Below, piece after piece: positions 7,114-16,294 of a stretch of 21,005 nucleotides of DNA; positions within the stretch are counted from its first letter, which is position 1; each line of letters starts with the position of its first letter. The stretch lies in IMG/VR virus record IMGVR_UViG_3300035698_017579, positions 1-21,005 of that record; one strand, written 5' to 3'. The position numbers were made by a program, and so were the translations under genes. Under the pieces are notes generated by a model. The model was not told the DNA's origin. It was given only the letters and a program-made list of their open reading frames with translations, and did not search any database. Origin of the DNA: a virus.

Positions 7114-7141
7114 ATTATACCATAGTATATTATGATTTCAA
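7114..7141 (-). promoter_or_regulatory. Sigma70-type promoter with extended -10 upstream of the protease gene
   Basis: On the minus strand TTGAAA (7136-7141) is followed by a 16-base spacer and TATAAT (7114-7119), preceded by TGG, giving an extended -10 (TGNTATAAT). The predicted start near 7107 leaves a leader of only about 13 bases that begins at the GAGAGG ribosome site. This would let the protease, scaffold and capsid genes be expressed more strongly than packaging genes upstream. Confidence 0.65.
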
Positions 7142-7144
7142 CAT

Positions 7145-7303
7145 CTAATAATTCGTGTCGTCAAACCGTCTCCCAATGGCTCTCCTACAATTTACCGACC
7201 CACACTTGGGGCATTTTACTATCTCAAGCTCCTCGTAGAGCATAAACCGCGTACCATCAATCATGCAGATATATAAAAACCTTCCTTGGCTTCTCTCATT
7301 CAA
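7145..7303 (-). CDS. Small zinc-ribbon protein, TTG start
   Basis: A 52-residue reading frame overlapping the end of the minor head gene by 8 bases. It ends with EIVKCPKCGSVNCRRA, a Cys-rich ribbon motif with three cysteines visible (CXXC plus one), like the small Com-type zinc fingers found in phage head and tail operons. The start TTG at 7303 has an AGGTGAGG site just upstream; an in-frame ATG at 7264 has no site. The frame is open across its whole length and ends just before the protease promoter. It may bind RNA or DNA, but that is by analogy only. Confidence 0.55.
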   Translation of the reverse strand: MNERSQGRFLYICMIDGTRFMLYEELEIVKCPKCGSVNCRRAIGRRFDDTNY

Positions 7304-8279
7304 TTGCCTCACCTTTCCACGGGTCTTCCGGAACTGACCAGCCTTCGATGATTGCTTCTTCGTCGCATCTACAATTAACTATTTCCTGACTCGGTGCTGA
7401 ACCATCGAATGGATGTTGCATCGATACACCATCAACATCAAACGGCTCATCTATCTTAACCACCTGACCATTTACATATTCATGACTCGCTCTGGTCCTC
7501 TGGTCTATAAGAGCCAGCCACATCTTAAACTTGATGCCGTTATTCTTATAGGTGGCGTGTTGGGTATAAACCTGTGCTGTTCCGGTTTCAGTACGGGCTA
7601 TGGTCATTGCTCGATTTTTATAGGTCTTTGTAAACAATCCTTTAATTCTTCTCTTGACTTCATACGGAGATATACCTTCCTCCATGTATGAATTTACCAA
7701 GATGTTCCTGAAGTCATTCAGGGTTTTCTCGTTAATCAATCCTGTTATTTTTACTCCTCTTTCAGCAAGAGCTTCGAGCATTGCGGGGTCTTTAAGATGA
7801 AAGGCCAGAGATATTCCCAAATCATTGAGAGCCTGCTGACCACCCATATCTGCGGCAACTAGATGCCATTTCGCAAAAACCTTCTCCATATTCTCAGGCT
7901 TAACGGATTTGTCCCAGCCTTTGATGTATTTGTCCACAATTGCTCTCTGAGCGTCTGTTATGGCTTTCGTGACCTCTACTATGGATGCAGTATAGTTCTT
8001 GTCGTACAGGTCAGGGTAGTGCCTGCGTGAGTATGCCTCAAGTCGATTGAGAACACCTTTCCTATTGAGCCATTGAATCAGGGATTTCCCCTGTCGTTTG
8101 AACTCTTTGTAAACATCCTTCGAGAATCCTTTGATAACCTTTTTCTTGGCTACCGTTTCCCGTTTAGGAAGCGTTACGTTACTTAGAGCCTTCTTCCGCG
8201 CCCTGCTTGCCAGCCTCATCCCCTTCTTTCTCATCTGGTTTGCCCGGCTTTTTGCCTTCGTTATCATCAACTGCTTCAT
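7296..8279 (-). CDS. Minor head protein, SPP1 gp7 / Mu F family
   Basis: A 327-residue protein. The C-terminal domain (about 215-315) has the family signature: IARTETGTAQVY, MWLALIDQRTRASHEYVNGQ, then a Gly-Pro-like FDGSAPSQ stretch and the closing NCRC motif. In SPP1, gp7 binds the portal and affects DNA ejection; the portal gene is directly upstream here. The N-terminus is very basic (many K and R in residues 1-60). The start at 8279 has GGAG 9 bases upstream but overlaps the portal gene by 101 bases. An ATG at 8219 would shorten the overlap, with a poorly spaced site. The family call is secure; the start is not. Confidence 0.85.
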   Translation of the reverse strand: MKQLMITKAKSRANQMRKKGMRLASRARKKALSNVTLPKRETVAKKKVIKGFSKDVYKEFKRQGKSLIQWLNRKGVLNRLEAYSRRHYPDLYDKNYTASIVEVTKAITDAQRAIVDKYIKGWDKSVKPENMEKVFAKWHLVAADMGGQQALNDLGISLAFHLKDPAMLEALAERGVKITGLINEKTLNDFRNILVNSYMEEGISPYEVKRRIKGLFTKTYKNRAMTIARTETGTAQVYTQHATYKNNGIKFKMWLALIDQRTRASHEYVNGQVVKIDEPFDVDGVSMQHPFDGSAPSQEIVNCRCDEEAIIEGWSVPEDPWKGEAIE

Positions 8280-9678
8280 CTGCTGTTTCTCCGGCTTCTT
8301 CTTCGTGGTCGTCTTCTTCGGATGATGTGCCTACTGCAACCATATTACCGGCTACATAATAAACATCTCCACCCAAATAAGGGTCAAGCTTGAGATATTT
8401 CTGCCTTATCTCGTTAGAATTCAAAGCACCCATCTTGAAGTATCTATCCGCTATCTCGCTGTTCTTCTTGGAATCTTCGATGTCAATGTCCTTGAAGACA
8501 AACTTCCAGCCCTCTATCTCAAGGCCTCTGCGGATTAATATCTCGTTGATAGTCCAAGCTATTTCTTCCTGTTTGGGATTGATAACAGAATCGAGATATA
8601 TCCGGTCTGTCTCTTCAGCGACATTTCCTCCCAACGCTCCCTGCTCAACAATGGCAACCCGATATGGCGGTACCTTGTGAGCAGTCAGAACATCGTCCCT
8701 GTTATCTTTCCGGTACATCCTGAAGCTTGACTCCTTGGAATCCACATTCAGCTTCTGGAACTTAATCTCTGCTCCCTTTGGAGTCGAAAGAGTAAGGGTC
8801 TTATGATTGCTTCCCTTCAGCTCTGTCTCAAAGAATTTCGTTATTTCTTCGTTGACCGCGGGAGTAAGAAGGGCTCCCTGCACCAGAATAGCGTAGGCCG
8901 GCACACCGAAGTTCACAAAGAAATCAATATTATATTCGACTTCTTTCATATTCCCGAACATTGCATAAAGAGCAGGTAACCATTCCGGAACGCCATAAAG
9001 ACTCGACAGCCAAGAGTACTGAGTAAAATTAATAATCTCAGAGCCTATCTCTTCAGGGTCTTTCACTTCTTTGACAAAATTCCCTGTCCTGTTATTCAGT
9101 ATTCGTTCATCGCCAAACTGCTTAAAATAAACGTACTGCCCGGCTACCTGTTGAACAAATCGTTCCTTGTCCTTCATATGCCGTACGGTCAGAGCGTTGA
9201 TATGATAGAGGCCATTAATCTTATCCTCTACATCTCTGGTCACTTCAATGTAACCATTTCCGCAACCCTCGTAATCCACAAATACTTTTTTCAGGACCTT
9301 GACGATATCTTCGCTCTCGTTGACCATTCCAAAGAACCCAACCAATCTTTTATAATTGACATCTCGTTCTCTTTCCTGCATGACCAACTCGTCATCGTGG
9401 ATAAAATCATATCCAATACCCACAGTATCCTGCTTCTTTGTGTGAATACATGATGAATGAACAACGTTTACCGACATCCAGTTCATCAGCTTTGCTAGAT
9501 TATACGGAGGCTCTATGATATTCGGTTTCCATTTCACCGTACCGTCAATCTGTTTTGAAGTAGGTTTTCCCACCTCATACTCTTTCATAACCTGTTGCGT
9601 AACAATCCGGCCCGTATCTGTAATCAAACACTCAACGGTCTGTTTGTTACCCGTCCTGACTTCTGTTCGCTTTGCCAT
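8179..9678 (-). CDS. Portal protein, PBSX-type
   Basis: A 499-residue protein of typical portal length. It forms the dodecameric ring at the head vertex through which DNA is packaged. PBSX-like features are VNVVHSSCIHTKKQDTVGIGY (about 70-90, shown here as a region), GNGYIEVTRD, an INALTVRHMK strand, the ring-helix zone FFVNFGVPAYAILVQG, and KVPPYRVAIVEQGALGGN (about 335-352). The C-terminal 45 residues are extremely acidic (runs of E and D) and overlap the next gene, which could reflect either a real tail or constraint from the overlap. A strong GAGGTGA ribosome site precedes the ATG at 9678, just after the terminase stop. Confidence 0.88.
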   Translation of the reverse strand: MAKRTEVRTGNKQTVECLITDTGRIVTQQVMKEYEVGKPTSKQIDGTVKWKPNIIEPPYNLAKLMNWMSVNVVHSSCIHTKKQDTVGIGYDFIHDDELVMQERERDVNYKRLVGFFGMVNESEDIVKVLKKVFVDYEGCGNGYIEVTRDVEDKINGLYHINALTVRHMKDKERFVQQVAGQYVYFKQFGDERILNNRTGNFVKEVKDPEEIGSEIINFTQYSWLSSLYGVPEWLPALYAMFGNMKEVEYNIDFFVNFGVPAYAILVQGALLTPAVNEEITKFFETELKGSNHKTLTLSTPKGAEIKFQKLNVDSKESSFRMYRKDNRDDVLTAHKVPPYRVAIVEQGALGGNVAEETDRIYLDSVINPKQEEIAWTINEILIRRGLEIEGWKFVFKDIDIEDSKKNSEIADRYFKMGALNSNEIRQKYLKLDPYLGGDVYYVAGNMVAVGTSSEEDDHEEEAGETADEAVDDNEGKKPGKPDEKEGDEAGKQGAEEGSK

Positions 9679-13033: not shown

Positions 13034-13421
13034 TTTTCAGCGCGGTTGCCATTTTGATTGGGTTTTCCTCGCCATGCTGGAAGTTATAAGCAATGGTTGA
13101 TATAATAGCTTCCTGCCTTGTCAGCGGTGTTCCGTCAATATGCTCCATAACCGCACAGAGGATTTCTGTTTCTTCCGGATAGACTTCGAGGAAGGCCCTG
13201 AGTCTATGCTCACCGTCCACAAGAATATACTTTGTCTGTCCGTCTTTTGGGTCTCCGGCCTCTTTGTTTTCCAACCTGATTTTTAACGGGTCAGTGAAAC
13301 CTACTGCCCTCATGTGGTTTACAAGTCCGCGGTATTTGTCTTTCTGCATTTCCTGAGGGTTGTAATTGTTTGGTGTCAATTCCCCAATAGGTACCTTCTC
13401 AATTTTAGTCTGTACTGACAT
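12969..13421 (-). CDS. ParB/Srx-fold protein, N-terminal domain (probable frameshift)
   Basis: A 150-codon frame. Residues about 8-110 are a ParB/sulfiredoxin-like domain: VPIGELTPNNYNPQEM at the start, and the phosphate-binding-type YILVDGEHRLRAFL (about 66-79), then EAIISTIAYNFQHGEENPI. Such domains occur in partition proteins and in many phage proteins near terminases. After about residue 127 the frame gives an unlikely tail (NGYGIRNDDGRHRGPYRNEK), while the overlapping frame continues with the expected HTH. Reading through with a single shift gives one protein of 224 residues spanning 13421 to 12746. The start overlaps the radical SAM gene by 17 bases and has a GGAGG-like site. Confidence 0.75.
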   Translation of the reverse strand: MSVQTKIEKVPIGELTPNNYNPQEMQKDKYRGLVNHMRAVGFTDPLKIRLENKEAGDPKDGQTKYILVDGEHRLRAFLEVYPEETEILCAVMEHIDGTPLTRQEAIISTIAYNFQHGEENPIKMATALKNGYGIRNDDGRHRGPYRNEKA

Positions 13422-15420
13422 TCATTTCCTCCTTCATTTCCTCGACTCTTGCGTCGAGTGTGTGCGTATCATCCTTTTCTGTTTGGATGAGACCTGTTTG
13501 ATTGTCTTTTCCGAACCATTCTTTTCTCTTATGGCAAACGGCGTTTTTTGATTCTTTCGGCATATCTTTCATAATTCCACATCCCGAACATGAAGTTGAG
13601 CATCCGGGTGTTTCCTCGGCCTTGCTCGCCTTCTGCCATTCTTCCCACAGATATTCCTTCGTCGTGCCTACGTCAATATGGTCTGCGACAAGCGGTGTAT
13701 CAAAATCTTTCGCTCTGAAGCAATCCCAGATATCGTAGCCGTCCTTTGCCAATACATAACTGCGAATCCCTATCCACATCTTTGCGTTTGATTCTCCCCA
13801 ATCCTGTTCAGAGAATACGTTAAATTTTATGTCCGTTTTGATTAGAGGAACGCAGAACCGTCTATCAGCATTATCAAACATTGCTTCGATTCTCCGACCG
13901 ATAGGTGAGCCTTTCACGTTTCTCCATCCACGGACCACATCTTTCTGAGCTTTCTCATCCCATTGTACATATGAGCCATCGTTAAACTTATCATTATACA
14001 GCCTGACGAAATCAGCCATGTACGGTGATTCGCCATATCCACACCACTGAAACGGCGTGTGGGGCTTTGGAATAAAAGGGTTAACGGATAATTCGATACT
14101 TGAATTTTTCCTTATTTTTCGTGACCTATCCCACATCTCATCCATCAAAGCATGAAGACCGATAACATCTTCGCGCGTCTCAAAAGGCAAGCCGCACATC
14201 GTCATAACCTTCGTCTTCGATATTCCTTCTCCAATGGCCTTTTCAAAGGCTTCCCAGAAGGTGGCATCTCCCAAATGTTTATTTACGACCCGTCTCATCC
14301 GGCCTGTTGCTGATTCCAGAGCAAAGCAAACAGACTTTTTCTTCCGGTGGTCATCCCAAGTCCGGACAAACTGGTCAATGCGCTCAGAATATCCGTCATA
14401 CTTAATCCCCAAACCTATTGCGTAATCCCTTGCCTCGTTGTATCTTGAGTAATCGGTCGGAGTCAAGCCCATCATGCGGACGGTACCCATATCTTTTCTG
14501 GCATAAATGGCATCCAGCACACCCTGAAAGTTCCGTTCCCGATATGGCTTATACCAAGAGAACGGCGAGCAGAACCGGCAACCATGTACGCAACCTCTCG
14601 TCACTTCAACGTCTTTGGTCAGATATAATCTGTCTCTGGCCACATTTTTGTTGAAGTCAACAACCGTATAATTATATTTTGCATCCGCTATATCAACTTT
14701 CTGCCATTGGATTTTATCCGGGGCTTCATCCCAGAGCTTTCTCATGCCGGCAAAGCGCTTTGTCTTCGGGTCGAAGATGTTTTCATAGAACCGCGGGACA
14801 TAACATCCCGGGATTTTGGCTACTGCTTTCAGGATTTCTACCTTTGGTTTACCGGCCTTCTTCATTTTCTTGATGGTACTCACCACGATTGGAGTCTGTT
14901 CTTCACCTTCTCCGATGAACATAATATCGAAAATCGGTGCAAGTATCTCAGGTGCAGTATTTAAAACACCGCCAGACATGATTATGGGCCATCTTTCGTC
15001 TCGGTCTTTTTCAAGAAAAGGGATTCCAGCGTAATAAAGCATATGAATGAGATTGAAAGCATTGGGTGTGAAGAAATACGAAAAGCCGATAACGTCAAAT
15101 TCCCGTAGCGGTATCTTTGTTCCGTATCCAAAAAGAGGAAGTTTGTTTGTCCGAAGGGCTCGCCTGATTGATGATGGAGGAAGATAAGAATAATCTACAC
15201 AAACACCGTTCAGGTTCTTTAGGACATTATAAATGATATGCACTCCCATCATTCCGGCTCCGGTAAAATACGGAACGCAATGAGCGAGGCAATATTTGAA
15301 AGCGGATGGTTCGCAGGGAATGTCTACATCAAACATTCCTTTGATTCCATCATCGAGTCGGTCACCTTGCATCTTGTGACCTTTAATTACGGCTTTAAAA
15401 GCCTTTGCATCTATTTTCAC
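13405..15420 (-). CDS. Cobalamin-binding-type radical SAM protein (TIGR03960-like)
   Basis: A 671-residue protein. The first third (about 55-175) looks like a B12-binding Rossmann fold (MGVHIIYNVLKNLNGVCVDY, VIGFSYFF, PIIMSGGVLNTAPEIL, IMFIGEGEE) but lacks the DXHXXG cobalamin-ligand motif. The radical SAM core follows, with the 4Fe-4S ligands in RGCVHGCRFC (C277, C281, C284) and later NPFIPKPHTPFQW, a hallmark of the TIGR03960-like group. Near the C-terminus TKEYLWEEWQKA and a second Cys cluster (C607, C611, C614) also match that group. SAM-dependent radical chemistry is expected; the substrate is unknown even for bacterial homologues. The GTG start at 15420 has GGAG 6 bases upstream, and a strong promoter lies above it. 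The gene is unusual in a phage. Confidence 0.8.
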   Translation of the reverse strand: MKIDAKAFKAVIKGHKMQGDRLDDGIKGMFDVDIPCEPSAFKYCLAHCVPYFTGAGMMGVHIIYNVLKNLNGVCVDYSYLPPSSIRRALRTNKLPLFGYGTKIPLREFDVIGFSYFFTPNAFNLIHMLYYAGIPFLEKDRDERWPIIMSGGVLNTAPEILAPIFDIMFIGEGEEQTPIVVSTIKKMKKAGKPKVEILKAVAKIPGCYVPRFYENIFDPKTKRFAGMRKLWDEAPDKIQWQKVDIADAKYNYTVVDFNKNVARDRLYLTKDVEVTRGCVHGCRFCSPFSWYKPYRERNFQGVLDAIYARKDMGTVRMMGLTPTDYSRYNEARDYAIGLGIKYDGYSERIDQFVRTWDDHRKKKSVCFALESATGRMRRVVNKHLGDATFWEAFEKAIGEGISKTKVMTMCGLPFETREDVIGLHALMDEMWDRSRKIRKNSSIELSVNPFIPKPHTPFQWCGYGESPYMADFVRLYNDKFNDGSYVQWDEKAQKDVVRGWRNVKGSPIGRRIEAMFDNADRRFCVPLIKTDIKFNVFSEQDWGESNAKMWIGIRSYVLAKDGYDIWDCFRAKDFDTPLVADHIDVGTTKEYLWEEWQKASKAEETPGCSTSCSGCGIMKDMPKESKNAVCHKRKEWFGKDNQTGLIQTEKDDTHTLDARVEEMKEEMNVSTD

Positions 15421-15471
15421 TCTTCACTCCTTCAATTACGAAGAAGGAAGGCAGACATCCCAACTGAATCA

Positions 15472-15501
15472 ATTATATTATATTACATTATAAACTGTCA
15501 A
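15472..15501 (-). promoter_or_regulatory. Consensus sigma70 promoter upstream of the radical SAM gene
   Basis: The minus strand reads TTGACA (15496-15501), an 18-base A/T-rich spacer, then TATAAT (15472-15477); both hexamers are consensus. Transcription should start near 15465, giving a leader of about 45 bases. In that leader CCTTC repeats can pair with GAAGG of the ribosome site (15427-15433), a possible translational brake. The promoter would drive the radical SAM gene and on into the ParB and packaging genes. Confidence 0.8.
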
Positions 15502-15519
15502 GGTTCTGATTTTTTTTTC

Positions 15520-15778
15520 AACTGAGGGAGGGCTTTACAAATTAGCCTTTTAGCTATCTCCAATTTGTTTCAAAGCCCTCGTTGGCTATTATTATCGGAC
15601 CCTTCTGCAGTGGTTTCCGCCTCAGTTATTTTTAAACTATCTCTGAGATGAAATTGGTAATACATCAATCAATCATGTTTGATTCAGACGCAGGTCTTTA
15701 GCGTATTATAGAGTATTCCCTGATAAATAATCTTAAAGCCTGCTAATTTTTAAAAGAGCACATACCTCAGAGATAGTT
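15520..15778 (-). ncRNA. Candidate structured non-coding RNA, family not recognised
   Basis: About 260 bases without a convincing gene but with several long helices. P1: a perfect 13-bp pair, 15635-15647 with 15766-15778. P2 inside it: 15690-15700 with 15734-15743, 10 bp with one bulged base. A small hairpin (AATCA/TGATT) follows. A second domain has P4 (15520-15527 with 15620-15627, perfect 8 bp), stacked without a gap on P5 (15528-15536 with 15572-15580, perfect 9 bp) and a further 7-bp helix (15537-15543 with 15562-15568). Minus-strand orientation is chosen because the adjacent tRNA-like element and all genes are on that strand; the Watson-Crick pairs alone do not fix the strand. No U-run ends it on that strand. 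Large phage RNAs such as GOLLD and ROOL often neighbour tRNAs, but I cannot match this to either. Confidence 0.55.
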
Positions 15779-15785
15779 CATTATT

Positions 15786-15870
15786 TTGGATGGGAAGGAA
15801 TTGAACCTCCGTTGGGATTTTTTCCGAGTTTATAGCCAGCATCCCTGCTCTACCATTGAACTACCATCCA
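15786..15870 (-). tRNA. tRNA-like element with abnormal anticodon arm (possible pseudo-tRNA)
   Basis: The minus strand gives a 7-bp acceptor stem (TGGATGG with CCATCCA), TA at positions 8-9, a D arm with the GG-containing loop (GTTC/GAGC, one G-T pair), and a T arm GGAGG/CCTTC with a perfect TTCAATT loop. The middle is wrong for a tRNA: GGGAT pairs with ATCCC as the anticodon stem, but the loop has 22 bases instead of 7 and the variable loop only 3. No anticodon can be assigned, and CCA is not encoded. It may be a decayed tRNA, an unusual tRNA needing processing, or a tRNA-like domain of the neighbouring RNA. Confidence 0.5.
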
Positions 15871-16011
15871 AATTTTTGACTCTCCGGCAGGCCTCGAACA
15901 CTGCAATACCGACATCCTCTCGCTCAGCCAGTCAGATATCATAATTCCGGCTTCATCGCTATGTCGTTTGCCATTCGGCTTTATTCCGATATGACTTTCA
16001 GACTTTGCCAT
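15850..16011 (-). CDS. Possible small protein, 53 residues
   Basis: An open frame from ATG at 16011 to TAG at 15850. It begins MAKSESHIGIKPNGKRHSDE and continues as a mixed, soluble-looking sequence with one Cys. The only ribosome-site candidate is a weak GTGGA 4 bases before the ATG. Its stop codon lies inside the D loop of the tRNA-like element, so both cannot be independent unless they overlap by 21 bases. It fills an otherwise empty gap after the 83-residue gene. The composition is plausible for a protein, but I see no motif. Confidence 0.35.
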   Translation of the reverse strand: MAKSESHIGIKPNGKRHSDEAGIMISDWLSERMSVLQCSRPAGESKIWMVVQW

Positions 16012-16042
16012 TTCGTCCACAGAGAGCCATTAAATTTTCTAT

Positions 16043-16294
16043 TTATTTTATCGGTGCCTCATCTCCAAAACCGTCTGGTTTTGAAGGAAGCTTCAGCTTG
16101 CTTTTTCCCTTCACCTTTAACCGGTCAGCATCAATCCAATTTCCAGTAGGATATTTTTCTGTGTCCTTTTTCTTGCATTTTGGTGTTATAAGATACTGTG
16201 TGCAACCGGTTATGTATTCACATTTACCAGTCACCGTTCCGGTAAATCCAGTTACGATATCAAATGCTTGTCTTCCTAGTTCAATTGAATTCAT
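16043..16294 (-). CDS. Small conserved phage protein of unknown function
   Basis: An 83-residue protein. Its body (IVTGFTGTVTGKCEYITGC, then TQYLITPKC, then YPTGNWIDADRLKV) resembles a small family found across phages in which a beta-rich core contains a 'TGK/RxEYxTGCxQYL' pattern; this is from memory and has no assigned function. The C-terminal tail is basic and polar. The ATG at 16294 has AAGGAG 6 bases upstream. That site sits in one arm of a 7-bp inverted repeat (16304-16310 with 16377-16383) whose other arm lies in the preceding gene. It is probably a small cytoplasmic or structural accessory protein; the exact role cannot be read. Confidence 0.7.
   Translation of the reverse strand: MNSIELGRQAFDIVTGFTGTVTGKCEYITGCTQYLITPKCKKKDTEKYPTGNWIDADRLKVKGKSKLKLPSKPDGFGDEAPIK

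Follow-up and report, generated by a model that had tools for sequence, protein, structure and literature searches.

The locus raises the question of whether the gene-free bases between a tRNA-like element and a strong promoter in this phage contain one new structured RNA of about 260 nt, as the initial annotation had proposed, and, if not, what they contain. The window analyzed here is the whole virus record of 21,005 bases, in which every assignable gene lies on the minus strand, including the portal, major capsid and terminase genes. A search with TerL as a single sequence returned nothing useful. The stretch in question (15520-15778) belongs to a gene-free region bounded by a small gene and a radical-SAM protein gene, and consists of two elements, E4 and E3 (Table 1). 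Read along the minus strand, the order is E2, E1, E4, E3, promoter and radical-SAM gene, so that the tRNA-like neighbor and the strong promoter are both present. The longest open frame across the stretch does not exceed 41 codons, in agreement with the earlier view that it holds no convincing gene.

Table 1. Positions of features in the window and of their counterparts in the related phage contig L003.
Feature	Position	Strand	Description
Small gene	16043-16294		Flanks gene-free stretch
E2 tRNA-like RNA	15880-16026	-	Anticodon arm replaced by conserved two-hairpin domain
E1 tRNA-like gene	15785-15871	-	ARAGORN: tRNA-Ala GGC; 22-nt anticodon loop with GCTATAAACTCGGAA
E4 element	15635-15778	.	About 140 nt; closed by 13-bp inverted repeat, 10-bp bulged helix inside
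13-bp helix	15635-15647/15766-15778		Closes E4
10-bp helix, one bulge	15690-15700/15734-15743		GCAGG(T)CTTTA with TAAAGCCTGC; inside E4
E3 candidate structured noncoding RNA	15520-15627	-	Three-way junction, about 108 nt
E3 closing helix	15520-15527/15620-15627	-	8 bp; two double changes in L003
E3 arm A	15593-15619	-	Short CGG/CCG stem around CTGCAGAAnnGTCCGA
E3 arm B	15528-15580	-	9-bp proximal and 7-bp distal helix, 18-nt loop
9-bp helix	15528-15536/15572-15580		Proximal arm B of E3
7-bp helix	15537-15543/15562-15568		Distal arm B of E3
Promoter	15472-15501	-	Sigma-70-type consensus TTGACA-18-TATAAT, 12/12 match; for radical-SAM gene
Radical-SAM protein gene	13405-15420	-	Radical_SAM_N2 and Radical_SAM domains; downstream of RNA cluster
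L003 E1	about 7119-7207
L003 E3	about 7215 to 7375		Covariance-model match 7239-7363
L003 E2	7552-7696

All five helices of the initial annotation were located in the sequence, and they exceed chance. Folded separately and compared to dinucleotide shuffles, E3 gave z = -4.9 on the minus and -4.3 on the plus strand, and E4 gave z = -4.2 and -4.4, respectively; none of 161 tiled background windows from the same strand of the record was as low as E3 or E4. For the whole stretch, z was -5.1 on the minus strand compared to -2.9 on the plus strand, and the minus strand, which carries the genes and the tRNA, is the better strand for a structured RNA. Apart from the repeat that forms the 13-bp helix, the 21-kb record has no perfect inverted repeat of 13 bp or longer within 160 bp. 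This helix had been taken as the closing helix of the entire structure. Instead, it closes only the ≈140-nt E4, and the domain labeled "P4/P5" in that proposal, which corresponds to E3, lies outside it.

The division into two elements is also apparent in one of two related phage contigs, L003 and L002, that were reached via the radical-SAM protein. L003, which has 86% identity in its best segment, contains E1, E3, a short ORF, E2, a second short ORF, the promoter and the radical-SAM gene, in that order; E3 is located directly behind the tRNA-like E1 with a gap of ≈10 nt, and E4 is missing. The RNA cluster is absent from L002. Because L003 carries E3 without E4, the 13-bp helix belongs to a separate element, which leaves E3 as the RNA of interest. 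A single RNA of roughly 260 nt closed by this helix would account for the stable folding of both halves of the stretch, and the two halves might interact, because a 13-nt near-repeat is common to the end of E4 and the loop of E3. However, E3 is not enclosed by the 13-bp helix, and in L003 it stands next to E1 without E4. We therefore rejected the single closed RNA, which we consider improbable. In L003 the radical-SAM gene itself is split into three tblastn pieces at about 9136-9400 and its first frame contains a stop, as a result of either real frameshifts or assembly errors.

Comparison of the two known E3 sequences, both from uncultivated phage contigs, supports the three-way junction. The outer TGAGGCG...CCCTCCCTCA is common to both copies, CTGCAGAAnnGTCCGA in arm A is the most conserved sequence, and 12 of the 18 bases in the arm-B loop are equal. 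Arm A of L003 is longer by one extra helix, which was trimmed before alignment and model building. In the two-sequence alignment, 88.9% of cells are paired on the named structure, compared to at most 57% in slid-partner controls. Six pairs are changed on both sides, a number reached in 9 of 500 shuffles, although this control leans toward the E3 structure because the structure was partly derived from the same two sequences. Four of the double changes fall in the distal arm-B helix. By contrast, three of the nine proximal arm-B pairs are lost in L003. Compensatory changes, which the initial annotation had named as support, are therefore seen between the two copies in the closing helix and in distal arm B. 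When L003 E3 was folded alone, the closing helix formed with p = 0.99, arm A with p = 1.00 and arm B with p of about 0.5; the forced arm-B form was only 0.3 kcal/mol above the best fold, and the overall fold energy was ordinary (z = -0.6). A covariance model built from both copies scored L003 at 71 bits; neither the fetched relatives nor 19 other whole phage records gave a convincing match, and the highest further score, 18.7 bits in G007, is probably due to chance. Sequence searches of phage records with the 700-base region or with E3 alone likewise gave nothing useful. We conclude that the E3 structure is beyond chance and that, in one relative, it is conserved with compensatory changes.

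E4 can be read without reference to E3. It is flanked on either side by AAAATAA, and an inserted element is its simplest reading; an extra RNA domain is also possible. A MITE-like mobile element of about 140 bp, with the 13-bp arms as terminal inverted repeats, would be consistent with the perfection of these repeats, the empty site in L003 and the presence of AAAATAA on both flanks, but a repeat this AT-rich could flank the element by chance. Moreover, no second copy of E4 was found in the window, fetched loci, phage records or plasmids, and the search of phages and plasmids produced a single 27-nt match at chance level. The MITE-like origin is therefore a tentative suggestion, somewhat on the doubtful side; it covers E4 alone and is no rival to our reading of E3.

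We compared the region with known RNA families. At curated Rfam thresholds only tRNA passes in the window, with no GOLLD, ROOL or other family, and a permissive scan of 15400-16050 gave nothing credible over E3 or E4; the same was true of L003. The earlier statement that GOLLD and ROOL motifs are not recognizable here agrees with these scans. GOLLD and ROOL are structured phage RNAs reported near tRNAs, and they are several hundred nt long. Like them, E3 is a structured phage RNA close to a tRNA-like gene, but it has only about 108 nt and is matched by none of their Rfam models. The manA RNA (RF01745), of phage and marine occurrence, gave no match to E3 either, and its only link to the locus is one 19-nt string near E2 that is shared with L034 and L035. 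Sub-threshold manA matches of 38-42 bits occur in L034 (101-281) and L035 (3743-3923, minus), downstream of sequence with this string, AGCGAGAGGATGTCGGTAT.

A self-cleaving ribozyme would provide E3 with a task in trimming the 3' end of the adjacent tRNA-like RNA. The cleavage site of the HDV-like theta ribozymes of gut phages adjoins phage tRNA 3' ends (PMC10879173), and E3 in L003 is likewise short, structured and placed directly behind a phage tRNA-like gene, beginning ≈10 nt past its end. However, no HDV-type or other ribozyme family matched at E values up to 10 in the window or up to 5 in L003, and in the window E4 sits between E3 and the tRNA-like end. In the HDV fold, the first and last strands do not pair with each other as they do in E3, so that the strand order of E3 does not fit the nested double pseudoknot of this type. 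On account of the missing family match and the wrong strand order, an HDV-like ribozyme was rejected for E3, and theta-like trimming of the tRNA-like 3' end appears very unlikely.

The position of E3 directly upstream of the radical-SAM gene on the same strand would fit a cis-acting, riboswitch-like leader of that gene. Yet the full consensus promoter lies between them, and L003 and L002 both have a promoter of the same type in the corresponding place. Because this conserved promoter separates E3 from the gene, E3 lies outside the radical-SAM mRNA and thus outside the leader of the transcript that starts there. In L003, moreover, E2 and two ORFs, one on either side of it, separate E3 from the radical-SAM gene. 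No riboswitch family in Rfam matched E3, and no terminator-like site was found between E3 and the gene. The radical-SAM riboswitch was rejected because of the intervening promoter, and we regard a leader function as very unlikely.

Taken together, the two sequences make E3 a good candidate for a new phage noncoding RNA. The earlier proposal of a new structured RNA was therefore right insofar as E3 is unlisted in Rfam and has a homologue with compensatory changes, and wrong in its extent and architecture. The reading that we favor, at roughly even chances, is that this phage lineage encodes E3 as a small structured noncoding RNA, which is processed from a tRNA-like transcript and acts in trans. 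Its transcription, processing and trans action, as well as any partner, we infer as follows. E3 would be the last segment of a transcript carrying the two tRNA-like RNAs E2 and E1. Because E3 in L003 starts ≈10 nt past the tRNA-like 3' end, tRNA end-processing would free the 5' end of E3, which could then act in trans as a free small RNA. Its most likely contact would be a host or phage protein or RNA, reached through the conserved arm-A sequence and the arm-B loop. E4, which separates E1 from E3, would have been inserted later or would add a hairpin domain of its own, outside E3.

The two tRNA-like RNAs preceding E3 are themselves unusual. E1 has an Rfam tRNA score of 43.1 bits, and its L003 copy scores 47.5 bits. 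E1 has the acceptor, D and T arms of a canonical tRNA but not the 7-nt anticodon loop; the 22-nt loop is present in both phages, with GCTATAAACTCGGAA identical. The acceptor stem is changed on both sides in L003 and is still paired. E1 probably does not serve as a decoding tRNA. Its loop string had 27 matches in viral contigs, and only that of L003 was in a tRNA context. An archaeal-type tRNA intron in E1 was rejected, as no bulge-helix-bulge pairing was seen by eye and the promoter is of bacterial type.

E2 belongs to a family that is better supported than E3 and may be the more interesting part of the locus. Relatives were reached by a core string and then by a gapped pattern, and the members are those of the window, L003, L036, L093, L113, L114 (with near-identical contigs), L123/L124 and L130. 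They have in common the acceptor, D and T arms and a conserved domain, CTGAAAGTC..GGCAAACGACAT..GAGAGGATGTCGGTAT, that replaces the anticodon arm. In a model for which the D-loop inserts of L036 and L113 were trimmed, 96.5% of cells are paired across six members and all seven acceptor pairs covary; this model recovers the L003 copy, which was not used in building it. E2 resembles tRNA-Leu in its 7-bp acceptor stem, its T arm and, in several members, a Leu-type D arm, and L123 terminates in CCA. Unlike tRNA-Leu, E2 has its anticodon arm replaced and is not called by ARAGORN, which passed over E2-type RNAs wherever they were tested; no Rfam match to E2 was obtained in the window, L003 or L036. 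Ordinary tRNA-Leu is scored weakly by the E2 model. Most of the weak genome matches (31-41 bits) are ≈82-85 nt, the size of ordinary tRNA-Leu, and the one that was checked, L155, is a tRNA-Leu. Among 49 matches of the E2 string in bacterial genomes, one (L093) was true. E2 was also tested as a tmRNA, and ARAGORN called none and Rfam gave no tmRNA match. A group I intron, suggested by a P7-like CGACAT/ATGTCG seen by eye, was rejected because E2 is too small and has no Rfam match.

Known phage RNAs include tRNAs and a small number of large structured RNAs. Synthetase recognition of tRNA-Leu does not need the anticodon. It is conceivable, although unlikely, that E1, E2 and E3 belong to a single phage RNA system, in which tRNA-like RNAs unable to decode, with E2 of Leu type, act as decoys or carry amino acids, and E3 would be their partner RNA. 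This lineage of phages would have the parts of the system in varied order, and E2-type RNAs would occur in other phages as well, including a clostridial prophage-like locus. In our literature search on tRNA-like RNAs and decoys of phages, such RNAs were not described, and neither Rfam nor the papers searched gave a non-decoding tRNA-like RNA with a conserved domain in place of the anticodon arm beside a further structured RNA. If real, these RNAs would be testable candidates for RNA decoys or other anti-host phage RNAs, and the window and L003 are a natural pair for comparison.

Several further tRNA-like structures were observed. By eye, the E2-type RNA appears nested in a larger tRNA-like structure in L036 (about 640-930), L113 (about 1240-1570) and L093 (270-560), with an outer acceptor of ATGTGG/CCACAT in L036 and ATGTAG/CTACAT in L093. 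In L114 (minus, 7165-7340), a tRNA-Tyr-like gene and a tRNA-like gene, the latter with a loop CAAACAG without U33, lie just before the E2-type RNA, again as judged by eye. Finally, L154 (1501-1617) and L140 (1501-1620, minus) each contain a tRNA-Leu-like gene, 117-120 nt long, that lacks a normal anticodon arm and is not called by ARAGORN; both are bacterial genomes, L154 from the phylum and L140 from the genus of the clostridial L093 genome.
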